Below, piece after piece: positions 1-6,828 of a stretch of 6,828 nt of DNA; position 1 is the stretch's first letter, and every line of letters starts with the position of its first letter. The stretch covers positions 1 to 6,828 of the forward strand of contig MNUO01000072.1 in NCBI GenBank assembly GCA_001871015.1. The letters run 5' to 3'. A program made the position numbers and the translations under genes. This DNA comes from Candidatus Desantisbacteria bacterium CG1_02_38_46 (GTDB lineage Bacteria > Desantisbacteria > UBA1551 > UBA1559). The notes beneath the pieces were generated by a model. It was not told where the DNA came from and searched no databases. It saw nothing but the letters and a program-made list of their open reading frames with translations.

Positions 1-576
1 ACGATAGATGGGTATAATCTTGGGGAAGTAGATACCATTTCTCTGCGAAAACAAATAGGTATTGTTCCTCAGGACGTCGTGCTTTTTAATAGGACTATAA
101 GAGAGAATATAGCGTATGGAAGACTTGATGCTACAGATGAGGAAATAATCCAGGCTGCAAAATCCGCAAATGCTCATCAATTCATATTAAAGTTTCCAAG
201 AGGTTTTGATACACCTGTTGGCGAAAGAGGGATTAAACTTTCAGGTGGACAGAAGCAGTGCCTGGCAATTGCCAGGGTGCTTCTCAAAAATCCGCGTATT
301 ATTCTTCTTGATGAAGCTACTTCATCCATGGATTCTGAATCTGAAGCACTCGTGCAGATTGCAATGACTAAGTTAATTGAAGGACGCACTACTATTATTA
401 TTGCACACCGCCTTTCAACTGTTCGCCATGCCAACCGCATAGTGGTTTTAAGTGAAGGAAGAATTGTAGAGATGGGGAAGCATATGGAACTTATGGCAAG
501 AAAGGGGCTGTATTATAAATTATATCAAACCCAGTTTAGACCTCTTGAAGAAGGAATTAAAGTAGAAAAGGTATAA
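1..576 (+). CDS. ABC exporter ATP-binding domain, MsbA-like (5' truncated by window edge)
   Basis: The reading frame is open from base 1, so only the C-terminal ~191 residues of the nucleotide-binding domain are seen; the membrane domain and Walker A lie upstream. Visible in order: Q-loop IVPQD (window residue Q24), signature LSGGQ (80-84), Walker B IILLDE with D104 and catalytic E105, D-loop SSMD, and H-loop histidine in IIIAHRLST (H136). The order and wording match type IV ABC exporters (MsbA/LmrA class, membrane and ATPase domains in one chain). The signature is followed by KQC where RQR is usual; the catalytic residues are intact, so the ATPase should be active. The GTG at 79 lies inside the conserved Q-loop region and is not a start. 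With lipid A-type genes downstream, a lipid or glycolipid flippase in the inner membrane is the best guess, but a drug or peptide exporter cannot be excluded because the substrate-contacting membrane part is missing. Family call is sure, substrate is inferred. Confidence 0.93.
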   Translation, partial: TIDGYNLGEVDTISLRKQIGIVPQDVVLFNRTIRENIAYGRLDATDEEIIQAAKSANAHQFILKFPRGFDTPVGERGIKLSGGQKQCLAIARVLLKNPRIILLDEATSSMDSESEALVQIAMTKLIEGRTTIIIAHRLSTVRHANRIVVLSEGRIVEMGKHMELMARKGLYYKLYQTQFRPLEEGIKVEKV

Positions 577-577
577 A

Positions 578-2179
578 ATGAAAAATGCCAAAAATGGCTT
601 AATCGTTATTTTGCTTATTCTTATGTCATTGCCAATTTTCATTATTGGTATTCAAAGAAGTTTTGGTATAACTGATGAAGCCTGTTATGCTGAAGTTACC
701 AAAGAGATGGTTAAAAGTGGAGACTGGATGACTTTTTCCAGGTGGGGCAGACCTTTTTATGAGAAACCGCCTCTTTTGTTCTGGATTATGGGTTTTTTCT
801 TTAAAATATTTGGAATGAATATTATTACTGCACGCTTGCCCGTTGTTTTTTTTGGGATAGGAGTTATTGTTTTTACTTATCTTCTTGGTAGAGAGATTTT
901 TGAAGAAAAGGATAAAGACAGCATCTTTTTTGCATGTTTAGTAACTTTGACCACTCCTTCTATTATTACATATGGACACGGAGCACTGATGGATATTCCG
1001 TTGCTCTTTTTTATTCTTATGGGGACATATTTTTTAATAAAATCAGAAAAGGTACCATATTTTTCTATGTTTTTTGGAATAAGTTTGGGATTGGGAATAA
1101 TGATGAAGGGTCCAATGGCTCTTGTACTTGTATTCGGGTTTATTCCATACATAATTTTAAAGAAAAAATGGCAATATTTTACTAATCCATATTTATACAT
1201 AGGACTTATTTTAATGGTTGTTATTGTTTTACCCTGGCATATTTATGAAATTGTAAAAAATGGTAAAGATTTCATTGATAGTTATTTTGGGGAACATATT
1301 TTTAGGAGAATGACTACTCATTATATTCCGACTGTAATTAATACTAAAACTGGAATATTTTTTTACCCTATTTCAATCTTATTTAATTTTTTACCCTGGT
1401 CAGTATTTCTTTTGCAGGCCCTATGGCAGGATATAAAAAACATAAAGATTTCTGATAAGAGTGCAATTCTTGTAAGCTTCATAATAACAAATCTTGTTGT
1501 TCTCACTCTAATCAAGACACATCTTGACCAATATGCTATTATTTTTTATCCTTTTCTTTCTCTTTCTGTTGGAACATATCTGCCACGTGCAATAAAAGAC
1601 GAAAATGCAAATAGACTCTCTCTTAAAGTGGGTAGCATTGTTTATTTAGTTTTAGGTTTAATTCTTGTAACAGCAAGCATATTTGTGTTTTTGAAATTTA
1701 ATTATTATATTCTTTGGACAATCCCTGCTTTAATCTATGCTTCAATTATTCTTTTTTTTAGTTTTGTTTATTTTTTTAGAAATAAACTTTCGATCTGGAA
1801 AAAAATGATATTAAATACACTTGGCTGGGGTTTTTATAGTGGCTGGATAATTTCTCTTATTTTTGTTCCTTTTTGGGATTACCATTCTGACTTTAAGTCT
1901 TTCATTTTTTCGGCCAAGAATTTAATTCCTGAAGAAGAAGTCGTTTACGGTGTTGTTCCTGACAGGATTCTCTATATGAGAGATCCCCTGCATTTTCATC
2001 TTGATAATCCAGTTAAAGATGTTGGAGAAGAAAATATTTCAAAAGTTTGGAATTCTGTGGATTCTTTGATTCTTATAACCCATAAAACAGTTTATGAAAA
2101 AAATTTACCATTGCTTTCCAGGGGCATCAAACTTTTTGAATCCGAAGAATGGATTTTGCTAAAAAAGGGGAATCCTTGA
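578..2179 (+). CDS. ArnT-like membrane glycosyltransferase (GT83/GT39, PMT superfamily)
   Basis: 533 aa, polytopic. Enzymes of this family move a sugar from a polyprenyl-phosphate donor to lipid A or other acceptors on the periplasmic face of the inner membrane. An N-terminal span (about 8-26) is followed by the periplasmic loop with the D33-E34 pair and E62-K63-P-P. The 30-residue distance from D33 to K63 fits the aspartate and lysine positions I recall for ArnT. Further family landmarks are GALMDIP (D139), MKGP (K177), PWH (219-221) and EHIFRR (from E239). About ten more hydrophobic segments follow, including the HLDQYAIIFYPFLSL stretch, and then a soluble C-terminal tail from about 435 that is probably periplasmic. 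The ATG lies 1 nt after the ABC gene stop, with AAAAGG (566-571) six bases upstream, suggesting coupling. Whether it transfers aminoarabinose or another sugar cannot be told. The family call is firm; the acceptor being lipid A is inferred from context. Confidence 0.88.
   Translation: MKNAKNGLIVILLILMSLPIFIIGIQRSFGITDEACYAEVTKEMVKSGDWMTFSRWGRPFYEKPPLLFWIMGFFFKIFGMNIITARLPVVFFGIGVIVFTYLLGREIFEEKDKDSIFFACLVTLTTPSIITYGHGALMDIPLLFFILMGTYFLIKSEKVPYFSMFFGISLGLGIMMKGPMALVLVFGFIPYIILKKKWQYFTNPYLYIGLILMVVIVLPWHIYEIVKNGKDFIDSYFGEHIFRRMTTHYIPTVINTKTGIFFYPISILFNFLPWSVFLLQALWQDIKNIKISDKSAILVSFIITNLVVLTLIKTHLDQYAIIFYPFLSLSVGTYLPRAIKDENANRLSLKVGSIVYLVLGLILVTASIFVFLKFNYYILWTIPALIYASIILFFSFVYFFRNKLSIWKKMILNTLGWGFYSGWIISLIFVPFWDYHSDFKSFIFSAKNLIPEEEVVYGVVPDRILYMRDPLHFHLDNPVKDVGEENISKVWNSVDSLILITHKTVYEKNLPLLSRGIKLFESEEWILLKKGNP
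2167..2170 (+). promoter_or_regulatory. Shine-Dalgarno site supporting a TTG start at 2176
   Basis: An A-run ending in GGGG (2161-2170) sits five bases before TTG at 2176-2178. This TTG overlaps the TGA stop (2177-2179) of the preceding gene in a TTGA junction. The in-frame ATG at 2149 has no comparable purine-rich site. The spacing and overlap make the TTG the better start and imply translational coupling. Confidence 0.6.
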
Positions 2180-3081
2180 ACTCTATTTATCTTTCCGTTG
2201 TGATACCTACCTATAACCGAAGCAGAATTTTAGAGAAAGTTTTACTTGCAATATATAATCAGGATTATCCGTCTTCTTCCTATGAGGTTATAGTGGTTGA
2301 TGATGGTTCAACTGATGATACTCCTGAAGTTATAAAATCTCTCAATCTACCGTCTTCCTGCATATACATAAAATTAGAAAAGAGTGGTTCTGCAAGAGCA
2401 CGCAATGAAGGGATAAGAAAGGCAAAGGCTGAGACGATAATTTTTATTGATAGCGACCTTATTGTAATACCTTCTTTTTTAAAAGAGCACATAAGATTTC
2501 AAAAGATGTATGATAAAGTGATTGTTCGTGGTCCAGTAATACATACATATAATCTTGAAAATCCATTTTCTACATCAAAGAAAATTACTGATATGTCCCG
2601 GGCGTTTTTTGCAACAGGAAATACCTCTATTAAGAAGAAATATTTAATCCGGGCAGGACTTTTTGATGAAGATTTTACAGAGTATGGATGGGAAGACCTG
2701 GAGATTGGAATCCGTTTGAAGAAATTAGGTTTAAGAGTAATGGATAATCCCGGGGCAATTGGCTATCACTATCAGAAGAGATTTTCTCTTGAAGATTTTC
2801 CCGCTCGGGAGAAAAGGGAGAGGAATAGAGCAACTGGCGCTGTAATCTTCTGTAAAAAACATCCTTCATTAGAGGTGAGGTGGATGACTCAAAATTTACC
2901 AATTTTCTTTTTGTTAGAGCGAGCATGCTTCATCTTAAATTTTTTATTACCTTCAAAAGAGAAAATTGCTTCTTTCTTAATCAGATATAAAAAGGACCTT
3001 CTGCTCACTCTTTTTCTCAATCTATATTTTTATTTGTTATATTTACGATATCTTTACCAGGAAAGAAAAAAATTAATATAG
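2176..3081 (+). CDS. Family 2 (GT-A fold) glycosyltransferase
   Basis: 301 aa from the TTG at 2176; an in-frame ATG at 2149 would add nine residues but has a poor ribosome site and a longer overlap with the upstream gene. With the TTG start the GT-A domain begins almost at once, as is usual: SVVIPTYNR (7-15), VVDDGSTDD with D42-D43 for nucleotide-sugar binding, the metal-binding DSD at 92-94, and the WED motif at 172-174 that normally holds the catalytic base, followed by LEIGIRLKKLG. Two hydrophobic stretches near the C-terminus (around LFFLLERACFILNFLL and LLLTLFLNLYFYLLYL) suggest membrane attachment. It should add a sugar from a nucleotide donor to a lipid-linked acceptor on the cytoplasmic side. 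Donor and acceptor are unknown. It is the only gene here ending in TAG. The next gene is in the same frame with only this stop in between. Confidence 0.9.
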   Translation: MNSIYLSVVIPTYNRSRILEKVLLAIYNQDYPSSSYEVIVVDDGSTDDTPEVIKSLNLPSSCIYIKLEKSGSARARNEGIRKAKAETIIFIDSDLIVIPSFLKEHIRFQKMYDKVIVRGPVIHTYNLENPFSTSKKITDMSRAFFATGNTSIKKKYLIRAGLFDEDFTEYGWEDLEIGIRLKKLGLRVMDNPGAIGYHYQKRFSLEDFPAREKRERNRATGAVIFCKKHPSLEVRWMTQNLPIFFLLERACFILNFLLPSKEKIASFLIRYKKDLLLTLFLNLYFYLLYLRYLYQERKKLI

Positions 3082-3082
3082 G

Positions 3083-3111
3083 ATTGCCACCTCGCCGCGG
3101 CGAGTCGCAAT
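3083..3111. repeat. GC-rich imperfect palindrome, intergenic interspersed-repeat-like element
   Basis: The core CTCGCCGCGGCGAG (3091-3104) is a perfect 14-bp palindrome with 12 G/C bases in otherwise AT-rich DNA. It is flanked by ATTGC (3083-3087) and GCAAT (3107-3111), which also pair, leaving a small 3/2 internal bulge. The element fills nearly all of the 39-nt gap between the glycosyltransferase stop and the GTG of the next gene. Its ATTGC...GCAATGACA frame resembles short intergenic repeats I recall from many bacterial genomes, but copy number cannot be judged from one copy. No T-tract follows, so it does not look like an intrinsic terminator. As RNA it would form a strong hairpin about 10 nt before the next start. 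Confidence 0.7.
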
Positions 3112-3120
3112 GACAATGAT

Positions 3121-4344
3121 GTGAAGCCATTAAATATTTTTTTTGCAAGTAATGGGCATGGTGAGGATATAATTGCCTGCCAGATTATAAAAGAATTGAG
3201 AAAAAAAATACCTTTCCTGTCTTTTAAGGCTTTACCAATTACTGGCATTGGCGGAACATACATTTCGAATAATGTACCTGTGTTAGGTTCGCGCAAGATT
3301 ATGCCAAGTGGTGGATTCGTTCGTTTAGGATTGAAATATTTATTGAAGGATATTAAAGCAGGTCTGTTAGATTTATTCATTGAACAAATAAGAATTCTGA
3401 GGAGTGATGGCAGAAAATCTGATTTTGTTATCGCTGTAGGAGACACTTTTCTTTGTAGTCTGTGCGGAATTTTTACTGGAAAAAAAATAATTTTTGTCTC
3501 TACTGCTCAATCTGTTTATATTGGCGAATTTCTCTGGATTGATAAATGGTTTATGCGCCATTACGCAAGGGTTGTATTCCCGAGGGATGAGAAGACTGCT
3601 TCTAATTTGAGGATGTTTGGAATTCCTGCTGTATATTTTGGAAATGTAATGATGGACTGTCTGGAAATTACAGGAGAGGACTTTGGAATTCCAGCGACAA
3701 AAAAAGTGGTTGGATTGCTGCCAGGTAGCAGAGATGAAGCTTATGGAAATTTTCAATACATTTTAGGGGCAGTGGAAGAAATCAGTGCTGGCTCACAAAA
3801 GAAGGATTATGGCGGACCAGCATTCCTTATGGCAATTGCCCCATCTATTAAAATTGAAATAATTGAAAAGATAGGTCAAGATTCAGACTGGGAATTCAGA
3901 AAAACAAAACCTGAAGAATCCAGCAGGGGAATTATTGGTTTTTTGATTAAACCACTAACAACTCTAAAAGGGATTCATTCACAGATTATAATCTCAAATA
4001 AATTTGCTGATGTGATTAACAATGCTGATACTATAATTGGTCTATCAGGAACAGGAAATGAGCAGGCGGTTGGATTGGGTAAACCTGTAGTTGCTTTTTC
4101 AGGAAAAGGTCCACAGATGACACTTCCATTTTTGAGGGACCAAAATAAACTTCTGGGAGGAATGGTTTTCATTGTGCCCCGTGACAGGAAAATGATTGCG
4201 CAGAGAATATTTTCTATTCTAGATGATCCATCAATTGGTGAAAATGCCAGAAAAATTGGATTTGAAAGAATGGGTCCAGCTGGTGCAGCAGACCGAATTT
4301 CTTCGTACATAAAAGAAAACATTCTGCAAAATACAAATGTTTAA
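3121..4344 (+). CDS. Lipid-A-disaccharide synthase-related protein (LpxB-like, TIGR03492-type)
   Basis: 407 aa, a GT-B fold protein distantly related to LpxB, which joins UDP-2,3-diacylglucosamine to lipid X. The N-terminus FFASNGHGED (7-16) is the hallmark of the LpxB-related family, unlike the usual LpxB start. Later LpxB-like landmarks are LLPGSRDEA (PGSR at 201-204) and the donor-site-like SGTGNEQAVGLGKPVV (from S309). Length fits the family (about 400). GTG at 3121 is the only usable start before the core: in-frame codons back to the upstream TAG contain no other start. No clear Shine-Dalgarno is present, because the palindrome at 3083-3111 occupies that space, so initiation may depend on coupling. 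The 3' end overlaps the acyltransferase gene by 8 nt. Family membership is clear from motifs; the reaction is not established, and it may make a lipid A-like or a different glycolipid. Confidence 0.85.
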   Translation: MKPLNIFFASNGHGEDIIACQIIKELRKKIPFLSFKALPITGIGGTYISNNVPVLGSRKIMPSGGFVRLGLKYLLKDIKAGLLDLFIEQIRILRSDGRKSDFVIAVGDTFLCSLCGIFTGKKIIFVSTAQSVYIGEFLWIDKWFMRHYARVVFPRDEKTASNLRMFGIPAVYFGNVMMDCLEITGEDFGIPATKKVVGLLPGSRDEAYGNFQYILGAVEEISAGSQKKDYGGPAFLMAIAPSIKIEIIEKIGQDSDWEFRKTKPEESSRGIIGFLIKPLTTLKGIHSQIIISNKFADVINNADTIIGLSGTGNEQAVGLGKPVVAFSGKGPQMTLPFLRDQNKLLGGMVFIVPRDRKMIAQRIFSILDDPSIGENARKIGFERMGPAGAADRISSYIKENILQNTNV

Positions 4345-5233
4345 TGTATTTCTGATAATTTTGGAAAAACTTTTAACTGCTTTTTTAGTAATTTTACCGC
4401 AGAAATTTGCATTATATTTAGGTGCGAGATTTGGTGGTTCATTTCTTTTTTTAGTGAAATTTACCAGGTATCATAACTACATGACCAATAATGTCAAAAT
4501 AACATTTGGCAAGAAATTTAATGAAAGAGAAAGATGCCAGATTGTAAAAAGTAGTATAGAAAAAATGTGCAAATCACTGGTAGAGGTATTTCGCTTTCCT
4601 ATCCTTAATAAGGAGAATCTGCGTAAGAAAGTGCAATTTGTTGGAATAGAACACTTAGATACAGCACTTGCCCAGAATAGAGGAGTTATTTTAGTTACTG
4701 CACACTTTGGAAATTGGGAGCTACTTGGTGTAAGTCTCTCCCTAACGGGGCATTCGTTAGCAACAGTAATTCAAGTCCAGAGCAATCCCGTTGCTAATAA
4801 TTTTTTAAATCACCGAAGGGAGAGCAAGGGCATAAAAGTGATTTCACGATATGTAGATTTACGCGTTTTAGTGAAGTTACTGAAGCAGAATTATGTATTT
4901 GGAATGCTGGTAGACCAGCATGGTGAATCGAAAAAGGTATTCGGGACATTTTTTGGGCATAAAGTTTCTCTGCCAGAGGGTCCTGCTGTGCTTTCAGTTC
5001 TGGTTGGTTCTCCAATTATACCTGTATTTATAATTCGCAATCCCGATGACACTCATTGTATTATTATTGAACCTCCCCTGAATCTGGAATCATTAAAAGA
5101 ACAGGACAGAGACAAGAAAATTGCCATTATCTCCCAGATGGTCAGCGATGTCTTAGAGAAATACATTTCGCTTTATCCTGACCACTGGAACTGGATGTAT
5201 AACCGCTGGGACAAATTAAAAAGTGAAAAGTGA
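4337..5233 (+). CDS. LpxL/HtrB-family lipid A-type acyltransferase
   Basis: 298 aa, about the usual length for the family (near 300). These inner-membrane enzymes transfer an acyl chain from acyl-ACP onto a lipid A precursor or related glycolipid. A hydrophobic N-terminal anchor (about 3-20) is followed by the catalytic H-X4-E motif in AHFGNWELLG (H123, E128), the equivalent of H132/E137 in E. coli LpxL. Further family features are GMLVDQHGESK, then FFGHKVSLPEGPAVL, and the C-terminal PDHWNWMYNRW, matching the tryptophan-rich end of LpxL proteins. The start ATG lies inside the previous gene (8-nt overlap) with only a weak ribosome site, so coupling is likely. The sequence cannot tell whether it acts like LpxL, LpxM or a paralogue such as a mycobacterial-type mannoside acyltransferase, but the LpxB-related neighbour favours lipid A-type substrate. 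The TGA stop overlaps GTG 5230, which is not the likely start of the next gene. Confidence 0.9.
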   Translation: MFNVFLIILEKLLTAFLVILPQKFALYLGARFGGSFLFLVKFTRYHNYMTNNVKITFGKKFNERERCQIVKSSIEKMCKSLVEVFRFPILNKENLRKKVQFVGIEHLDTALAQNRGVILVTAHFGNWELLGVSLSLTGHSLATVIQVQSNPVANNFLNHRRESKGIKVISRYVDLRVLVKLLKQNYVFGMLVDQHGESKKVFGTFFGHKVSLPEGPAVLSVLVGSPIIPVFIIRNPDDTHCIIIEPPLNLESLKEQDRDKKIAIISQMVSDVLEKYISLYPDHWNWMYNRWDKLKSEK

Positions 5234-5240
5234 GAAGGGA
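5233..5240 (+). promoter_or_regulatory. Shine-Dalgarno site fixing the start at ATG 5245
   Basis: AGAAGGGA lies with its GGG five bases before ATG 5245. It begins on the last base of the preceding TGA stop. The in-frame GTG at 5230 would place this site inside the coding region, so ATG 5245 is preferred. Confidence 0.7.
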
Positions 5241-5244
5241 AAAA

Positions 5245-6753
5245 ATGAGCGAGATTAAAGTTTCAGTCATAATTGTCAGCTATAATACGAAAAAGATTCT
5301 GGAAAACTGCATTTCTTCTGTTTTCAGTGCAGGAGAATCCTCTATTGAAATGGAGGTTATAGTAGTTGATAATGCCTCAACTGATGATAGCATCCATATG
5401 GTCAGAGAAAAATTTCCATCGGTAAAATTGATTGTAAACAGAGAAAATCTCGGTTTTGCCAGTGCTGTCAATCAGGGATTGAGAAAGAGTGAGGGGAAGT
5501 ACAAATTAATGCTGAATAGTGATACCACATTGTTGGGGAACGCAATAAAAACAATGCTTGAGTTCCTCCAGCAAAATCCTTCAGTGGGCGCAGTTAGACC
5601 TAAAGTTCTTGCTCCTGATGGAAAACTACAAAGACAGGGAAGCGGATTCTGGAGATTTTTAAAAAACCCGAACACTGTGCACAAATTAAAATGGATCAGT
5701 GGTTGCTGTATGATGGCAAGATATGAAGCTATAAGGGATACAGGTCTATTTGATGAGAAATTTTTCTTTTATAATGAAGATGTGGATTATTCACGCAGGA
5801 TGAAGAGAAGGGGGTGGGAATTATATTATTTTCCTGGAGCATGTGCAATTCATCTCTGCGGAGCAAGCAGCAGAAATCTTGATAAATTACTCGTAGAACA
5901 ATATCGCGGGAAATATTATTACTATCAAAAACATTACGGAAGATTTGCTCTGTTTTTTTATAAGATTCTGACAGCTTTTAAATTAATGGCGAAGGTTGGT
6001 TTGAGTTTATTCAGTTATAATGGGAAAACTAAAGAGGAAGCAATTGCTTATTCCAAAATTGTAAAGATTACTTTTATCTTTTTGCTTTTTTGTTTTGTCC
6101 CCATGCTTTGCGGACAGTGCGAGATAAGAATTGGCGAAAAATTAACTTATAATGTAAAAGTTGGAATATTTTCTGCAGGGACCCAGATAATCCATGTTGC
6201 CCAAAAAACCTATGTTGATAGCTATCCAGTCTACCACATAATCAGCCATACCAGGACAAATCCATTTTTCTCAATATTTTATAAAATGGATAATCGTGTA
6301 GAGGTATTTATAAATGAAGACAATCTTTTCCTGAGAAAGTTAATTAAGAATTTAAATGAGGGAGGCTTTCGTCAAAAAAGTATAGCGATTTTAGATCTTG
6401 AAAAAGGTAAAGGTCAAATTATAAGAGATAATTCCTCGCAAACCTTTGAGATACCTTTATTTCTTATCGATATTGTTTCAATGCCGTATTACCTGAGGAG
6501 TATTGAGCTTCGCTTGAATCAAAAAATCCCATTGAATATCCTTGCCGACAATGGAGTTAAGACTTGTGAAGCCATAGTAGAAGCCAGGGAAATGGTAAAT
6601 GTTGCGTTTGGAAAGTTTGATACATTCAAAATCGTTGAAAAAAAAGAAAAAGTAAAAGTGTGGCTCAGCACAGATTCCCGGCGTCTTCCAGTAAAAATCT
6701 CCATCGGGACAAATTTTGGTGAAATTGTTGGAATGTTAGAAAAAATAGAATAA
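5245..6753 (+). CDS. GT2 glycosyltransferase fused to membrane segment and DUF3108-type domain
   Basis: 502 aa from ATG 5245. Residues about 5-270 are a complete WbbL/rhamnosyltransferase-type GT2 enzyme: VSVIIVSYNT, VVDNASTDDS (D42), LNSDTT (D93), WISGCCMMAR, and FFYNEDVDYSRR with E178-D179, then the YRGKYYYYQKHYG region and a hydrophobic amphipathic tail ending in KEEAIAYSKIVK, where such enzymes normally stop. Here the frame continues into a hydrophobic stretch (275-289, ITFIFLLFCFVPMLC) that resembles a signal peptide core, preceded by lysines. Residues about 293-502 look like DUF3108: IGEKLTYNVKVGIFSAGTQ, then FFSIFYKMDNRVEVFI and LNEGGF. DUF3108 proteins are normally separate and carry their own signal peptide; their function is not known to me. 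Predicted topology is GT2 in the cytoplasm and DUF3108 in the periplasm. No internal start with a good ribosome site is seen near the junction (candidate ATGs 5986 and 6103 lack one). Domain calls are good; the fusion's biology is open. Confidence 0.87.
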   Translation: MSEIKVSVIIVSYNTKKILENCISSVFSAGESSIEMEVIVVDNASTDDSIHMVREKFPSVKLIVNRENLGFASAVNQGLRKSEGKYKLMLNSDTTLLGNAIKTMLEFLQQNPSVGAVRPKVLAPDGKLQRQGSGFWRFLKNPNTVHKLKWISGCCMMARYEAIRDTGLFDEKFFFYNEDVDYSRRMKRRGWELYYFPGACAIHLCGASSRNLDKLLVEQYRGKYYYYQKHYGRFALFFYKILTAFKLMAKVGLSLFSYNGKTKEEAIAYSKIVKITFIFLLFCFVPMLCGQCEIRIGEKLTYNVKVGIFSAGTQIIHVAQKTYVDSYPVYHIISHTRTNPFFSIFYKMDNRVEVFINEDNLFLRKLIKNLNEGGFRQKSIAILDLEKGKGQIIRDNSSQTFEIPLFLIDIVSMPYYLRSIELRLNQKIPLNILADNGVKTCEAIVEAREMVNVAFGKFDTFKIVEKKEKVKVWLSTDSRRLPVKISIGTNFGEIVGMLEKIE

Positions 6754-6828
6754 CATGTCAGGACTAAAGTCCTGAGTTACATGTCAGGACTAAAGTCCTG
6801 AGTTACATGTCAGGACTAAAGTCCTGAG
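6753..6828. repeat. Tandem 26-bp repeat with internal perfect inverted repeat, three copies, cut by window end
   Basis: The unit begins ACATGT and contains TCAGGACT-AA-AGTCCTGA, an 8-bp perfect inverted repeat around AA, then GTT. Copies lie at 6753-6778, 6779-6804 and 6805-6828; the third has 24 of 26 bases before the window ends, so the array may continue. The copies are identical. The first base of copy 1 is the last base of the preceding TAA stop. Units abut with no spacer, so this is not CRISPR. No U-tract follows the hairpins, so a standard intrinsic terminator is not supported. Hairpin plus fixed linker recalls REP-like elements; in an mRNA they would form a row of 3' hairpins behind the last gene. 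Confidence 0.9.

Follow-up and report, generated by a model that had tools for sequence, protein, structure and literature searches.

The locus raises the question of whether the open reading frame at 5245-6753, which runs from a GT2 glycosyltransferase into a DUF3108 domain, represents a genuine gene fusion or two genes that merely appear joined, and, if genuine, what its product might do. The window analyzed here is the whole stretch of 6828 nucleotides, comprising bases 1-6828 of a 10,093-base contig (C48) from a 1.73-Mb draft genome (G000) of 133 contigs that is 88% complete. Based on the homologies that meet at the junction and on the surrounding genes, we propose that the frame is a genuine lineage-specific fusion, with the GT2 part inside the cell, one hydrophobic segment and a periplasmic DUF3108 domain, acting in the assembly of a lipid A-type glycolipid; we give this reading a probability of roughly 0.55. 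The features on which the argument draws are as follows.

1-576, forward strand: MsbA-like ABC transporter, 3' part; 78% to its counterpart in the related genome G001
578-2179, forward strand: PMT/ArnT-like membrane glycosyltransferase (PF13231); not at this place in G001
2149-3081, forward strand: first GT2 of the operon; 51% to its G001 orthologue
3121-4344, forward strand: TIGR03492 lipid-A-disaccharide synthase-related protein
4337-5233, forward strand: LpxL-type acyltransferase (PF03279); 65% identical to its G001 orthologue
5245-6753, forward strand: fused ORF of 502 amino acids, GT2 plus hydrophobic segment plus DUF3108
5263-5739, forward strand: GT2 domain PF00535, residues 7-165, from Pfam, motifs and homologue alignment
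5881-6066, forward strand: GT2 C-terminal tail, residues 213-274, in continuous alignment with a free-standing 283-residue GT2 (G356)
6018-6022, forward strand: TAATG, out of frame with the ORF, read from the sequence
6033-6045, forward strand: Shine-Dalgarno-like AGAGGA (6033-6038) and, four bases on, an in-frame ATT at 6043, read from the sequence
6055-6069, forward strand: junction, residues 271-275, the last GT2-like residues and the first aligned to the G001 DUF3108 signal peptide
6067-6114, forward strand: hydrophobic segment, residues 275-290, putative former signal-peptide core, from hydropathy and alignment with the G001 signal peptide
6145-6738, forward strand: DUF3108 domain PF11306, residues 301-498, conserved columns intact

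An earlier note on this DNA had read 5245-6753 as one frame joining a complete GT2 to a full DUF3108 domain, and this is borne out by 502 codons without a stop in which Pfam recovers both families. The ATG at 5245 is the preferred start, with GAAGGG at 5234-5239 ahead of it, and the in-frame GTG at 5230 is also possible. The PF00535 match (96.5 bits against a cut-off of 23.3, E 2e-27) spans positions 1-166 of the 168 in the profile, and the motifs VDN (residues 41-43), NSD (91-93), NEDVD (177-181, just beyond the Pfam match) and H203, mostly common to the homologues, are kept. Judged by domain score and motifs the GT2 half is a full member of its family, with sugar transfer as its predicted activity. 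The PF11306 match (86.6 bits against a cut-off of 26, E 3e-24) covers profile positions 1-208 of 209, and all ten columns that are invariant in a 12-sequence alignment, the window copy included, are kept in that copy. A sequence-profile search returned no credible PDB relative of DUF3108, and a single-sequence AlphaFold model has a mean pLDDT of 35.5; a YmcC-like beta fold is stated for the domain in PMC4364669.

The reality of the join turns on the junction itself. The best GT2 homologue, the free-standing G356 protein, aligns at 41% over residues 5-275 (E 4e-65) and ends a few residues beyond the aligned tail, its terminus (...KTRSRLTAYQRILKDALGGLI and then the stop) matching ...KTKEEAIAYSKIVKITFIF of the window protein through residue 274. 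In comparisons of the tail with this protein, none of 2000 shuffles was as good for residues 259-275, and a longer piece of the tail gave a weaker result (38 of 2000). Because the homologue ends so soon afterwards, the GT2 is whole and keeps its frame as far as the junction, in agreement with the earlier placement of its end near residue 274. From the other side, the free-standing DUF3108 protein of G001, a genome of the same order and the sole other one of the phylum in the comparison, aligns at 47% from residue 271 onwards, signal-peptide core included. Since the two homologies reach the junction in the same frame, that frame is right on both sides, and since they meet or overlap at residues 271-275, no room is left for a lost stop together with a start and the n-region of a signal peptide. 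With the GT2 tail meeting the DUF3108 signal peptide directly, neither a single lost stop nor a single indel explains the join, and an in-frame deletion or recombination is a simpler origin than the lost stop, which had been put forward as the main alternative and now appears unlikely.

The same observations bear on the suggestion that an error of assembly or sequencing has joined two separate genes. The sequence is a MAG scaffold in which a gap of 10 N follows some 75 bases beyond the ORF, the fusion comes from a single genome, and the TAATG at 6018-6022 would provide the start of a good signal peptide, albeit only given an indel. However, one lost stop supplies no start, one indel would leave the GT2 overrunning by more than 100 bases, no other gene on the contig is broken, and homology backs the frame on both sides up to the junction. 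Frame 0 is also codon-like throughout, being both the most codon-like and the sole stop-free one of the three forward frames over 5700-6450, although the open frame alone is a weak guide, as 43% of 12-codon stretches of such composition would be free of stops by chance. On the strength of the frames, the codon usage and the homologues that flank the junction, we accordingly judged a frameshift or lost-stop artefact unlikely, and we regard an assembly or sequencing error as very improbable; the join looks genuine, albeit known from one draft genome only.

DUF3108 might still be made mainly by translation starting inside the frame, from the ATT at 6043 or from an ATG at 5986, with the full-length fusion as a minor species. 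The Shine-Dalgarno-like AGAGGA stands four bases ahead of the former, and a product beginning AYSKIVKITFIFLL... would carry a usable signal peptide; but ATT is rare as a start, the AGAGGA is part of codons (AAA-GAG-GAA) required by the GT2 tail, and the ATG at 5986 lacks a Shine-Dalgarno sequence. We consider such a start unlikely to be the principal source of DUF3108, and take the AGAGGA with its ATT to be, at most suggestively, a relic or a weak internal start.

We then examined the gene context, which had been described as an operon for envelope glycolipids; this description fits, as LpxL, TIGR03492, GT2 and MsbA genes lie alongside the fused frame. The order in G001 is MsbA-GT2-TIGR03492-LpxL-DUF3108-RecR-POR, and the window shows the same order with two extra glycosyltransferases, one the PMT/ArnT-like protein that follows msbA, the other the GT2 that stands between lpxL and DUF3108. 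Given this match, and the RecR and POR genes that also follow downstream on the window's contig, the locus is one operon and not a chimera. Furthermore, the GC3 of the GT2 part (0.34) and of the DUF3108 part (0.32) resembles that of the neighboring genes, which makes a recent foreign insert or a chimeric contig unlikely; between the synteny with G001 and the even composition, the chimeric contig was ruled out. In G001 DUF3108 is encoded separately and carries a signal peptide of its own; its start codon overlaps the stop of lpxL (ATGA), and the two genes have no GT2 between them. The proposal that two formerly adjacent genes had merged is therefore upheld for the separate, secreted DUF3108 and not for the adjacency of the GT2 in that genome; the GT2 may have been inserted in the lineage of the window or lost in that of G001. 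In an unrelated genome, G333, the genes for MsbA, LpxL, GT2 and DUF3108 follow in the same order as separate genes (L074, G333:C3:48500-60500). LpxC and LpxB are present both in G001 and in the window's genome, and hence lipid A is made in the latter. No match to WaaA (PF04413) was found in G001 or in the window's genome at its 88% completeness, which suggests a lipid A made without the usual Kdo transferase and would allow the core to be begun by other glycosyltransferases.

Downstream of the frame, tandem 26-bp units with the palindrome TCAGGACTAAAGTCCTGA occupy 6754-6828 and continue past the 10-N gap to C48:6871 (L042). The sequence TCAGGACTNNAGTCCTGA has 147 exact copies in its own genome, none for a reversed control and two in G001, and a Y1 transposase has three matches in the window's genome, one with a stop and one at a contig end. 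It seems that a family of the REP/RAYT type has been inserted here, between DUF3108 and recR. Separately, three exact 20-bp tandem copies of GTAGTGGCAGACCTTGGTCT lie between the POR genes (L042:1949-2009).

DUF3108 itself is common, occurring in 207 of the 386 sampled genomes, or about half. Homologues sharing the fused architecture, which the earlier note had asked for, did not emerge: a search with the full protein across the 386 genomes and a further 150 from the phylum to which G333 belongs yielded no second GT2-DUF3108 fusion among the matches listed, although with few candidates scored per genome a distant second case could escape. Within the sampled genomes the fusion is a singleton. 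Long frames of 410-549 codons around DUF3108 in G333, G349, G193, G138, G010 and G344 were rejected as candidates, being stop-free overruns that precede ordinary starts with signal peptides; a further long frame in G036 (465 codons), missed by tblastn, was left out of the resolved set. We found no relative on viral contigs and no description of a GT-DUF3108 fusion in the literature; the architecture is new, both families being known. Its occurrence as a singleton and the absence of the GT2 at this place in G001 are in line with a join of no functional meaning, in a lineage to which DUF3108 or its secretion is dispensable. Against this, the invariant DUF3108 residues and the GT2 motifs are all kept, with no stop or frameshift, and therefore both halves look to be under selection, so that we find a neutral join improbable.

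Returning to the fusion as a genuine one, we considered how its product might lie in the membrane. DUF3108 lacks an N-terminal signal peptide here, the signal-like segment being internal (272-290) and preceded by 271 GT2 residues. This 19-residue stretch, IVKITFIFLLFCFVPMLCG, is the most hydrophobic of its length (mean Kyte-Doolittle 2.36, the runner-up reaching 1.34) and aligns with the G001 signal peptide, in keeping with the signal-peptide-like segment earlier placed at 275-289. Its core extends over no more than about 15-16 residues and resembles that of a signal peptide, and residues 275-290 are predicted to form either a membrane anchor or an internal signal peptide. Residues 240-274 contain seven K/R against two D/E, and this charge ahead of the segment favors the GT2 head inside and DUF3108 outside. 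We prefer a segment that would stay as an anchor over one releasing DUF3108 through signal peptidase. Were the product instead a polyprotein, cut near residues 290-292, it would yield a GT2 that is membrane-bound and ends in a hydrophobic tail, along with a DUF3108 set free in the periplasm, and the fusion would only couple their expression. The segment does match the G001 signal peptide in core and length, with the small residues of LCG/GQC ahead of the mature domain available for cleavage; however, the usual substrates of Sec and signal peptidase carry their signals at the N terminus, and internal ones are cut less often. We accordingly view cleavage as doubtful, if deserving of attention.

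For the anchored fusion, we posit that a GT2 gene lying between lpxL and DUF3108 was joined to the latter in frame, probably through a small deletion or recombination, such that the C-terminal tail of the GT2 would have replaced the positively charged residues with which the DUF3108 signal peptide began. The catalytic head would then sit on the cytoplasmic face of the inner membrane and perhaps add a sugar to a lipid A-type glycolipid, on which the LpxL acyltransferase, the TIGR03492 enzyme, the other GT2 and the MsbA flippase are likely to be its operon partners, and DUF3108, in the periplasm, might act on or near this glycolipid once flipped.

A link between DUF3108 and glycolipid assembly, which the earlier note had drawn from the fusion, receives independent support from the neighborhoods of DUF3108 elsewhere. 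The inspected neighbors include msbA, gmhB, hldE/pfkB, heptosyltransferase (GT9), hldD and undecaprenyl-phosphate sugar transferase genes. Among loci outside those that guided the choice of query, 18 of 59 DUF3108 loci have lipid A/core genes at a distance of up to about 8 kb, compared with one of 40 control loci drawn from the same genomes (Fisher p 2.5e-4), the loci being phylogenetically non-independent and the thresholds having been fixed after the first 20+20 were seen; in the batch scored after that point the counts were 13/39 and 0/20 (p 0.002). The literature passages that name the family give no function for it. Based on the fusion to a glycosyltransferase within a lipid A operon, together with the frequent msbA, lpxL and ADP-heptose/heptosyltransferase neighbors elsewhere, we propose as a testable idea that DUF3108 helps to assemble or move LPS-type glycolipids in the periplasm; the fusion is a clue to this role, not proof of it. 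We advance more tentatively, as a possible extension, that the protein is a bifunctional trans-envelope enzyme, its cytoplasmic glycosyltransferase tied through the inner membrane to a periplasmic DUF3108 domain that would receive or modify the same lipid A-type glycolipid. Should that be so, DUF3108 would be a lipid A/LPS-handling domain across many phyla.

DUF3108 also occurs with an upstream LysM domain at L081:5880-7046 and L082:6352-7533, both in msbA-gmhB-hldE-heptosyltransferase clusters, the LysM being confirmed by Pfam in L082 only.

Comparison with known systems places the protein between several of them. It resembles the free-standing secreted DUF3108 (PF11306) proteins in its complete domain, signal-peptide core and conserved residues, and shares its operon position with the one in G001, but those have their own start and an N-terminal signal peptide, whereas here the signal peptide comes after an entire GT2. 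The free-standing, rhamnosyltransferase-like GT2 proteins (PF00535) of 280-330 residues, such as that of G356, are alike in domain, motifs and tail up to residue 274; they stop a few residues later, whereas the window's chain runs on into a secreted domain. The LysM-DUF3108 proteins are likewise DUF3108 fusions, in L082 within an msbA/gmhB/hldE/heptosyltransferase cluster, but LysM is itself extracytoplasmic and they have no cytoplasmic enzyme attached, in contrast to the GT2 here. Finally, the GT2 head aligns with PDB 5mlz, from the polyisoprenyl-phosphate glycosyltransferases, membrane GT2 enzymes whose cytoplasmic head is tethered by transmembrane helices following the catalytic domain; such enzymes share the tethered cytoplasmic head with the fusion proposed here, which differs from them in carrying a folded periplasmic DUF3108 domain.
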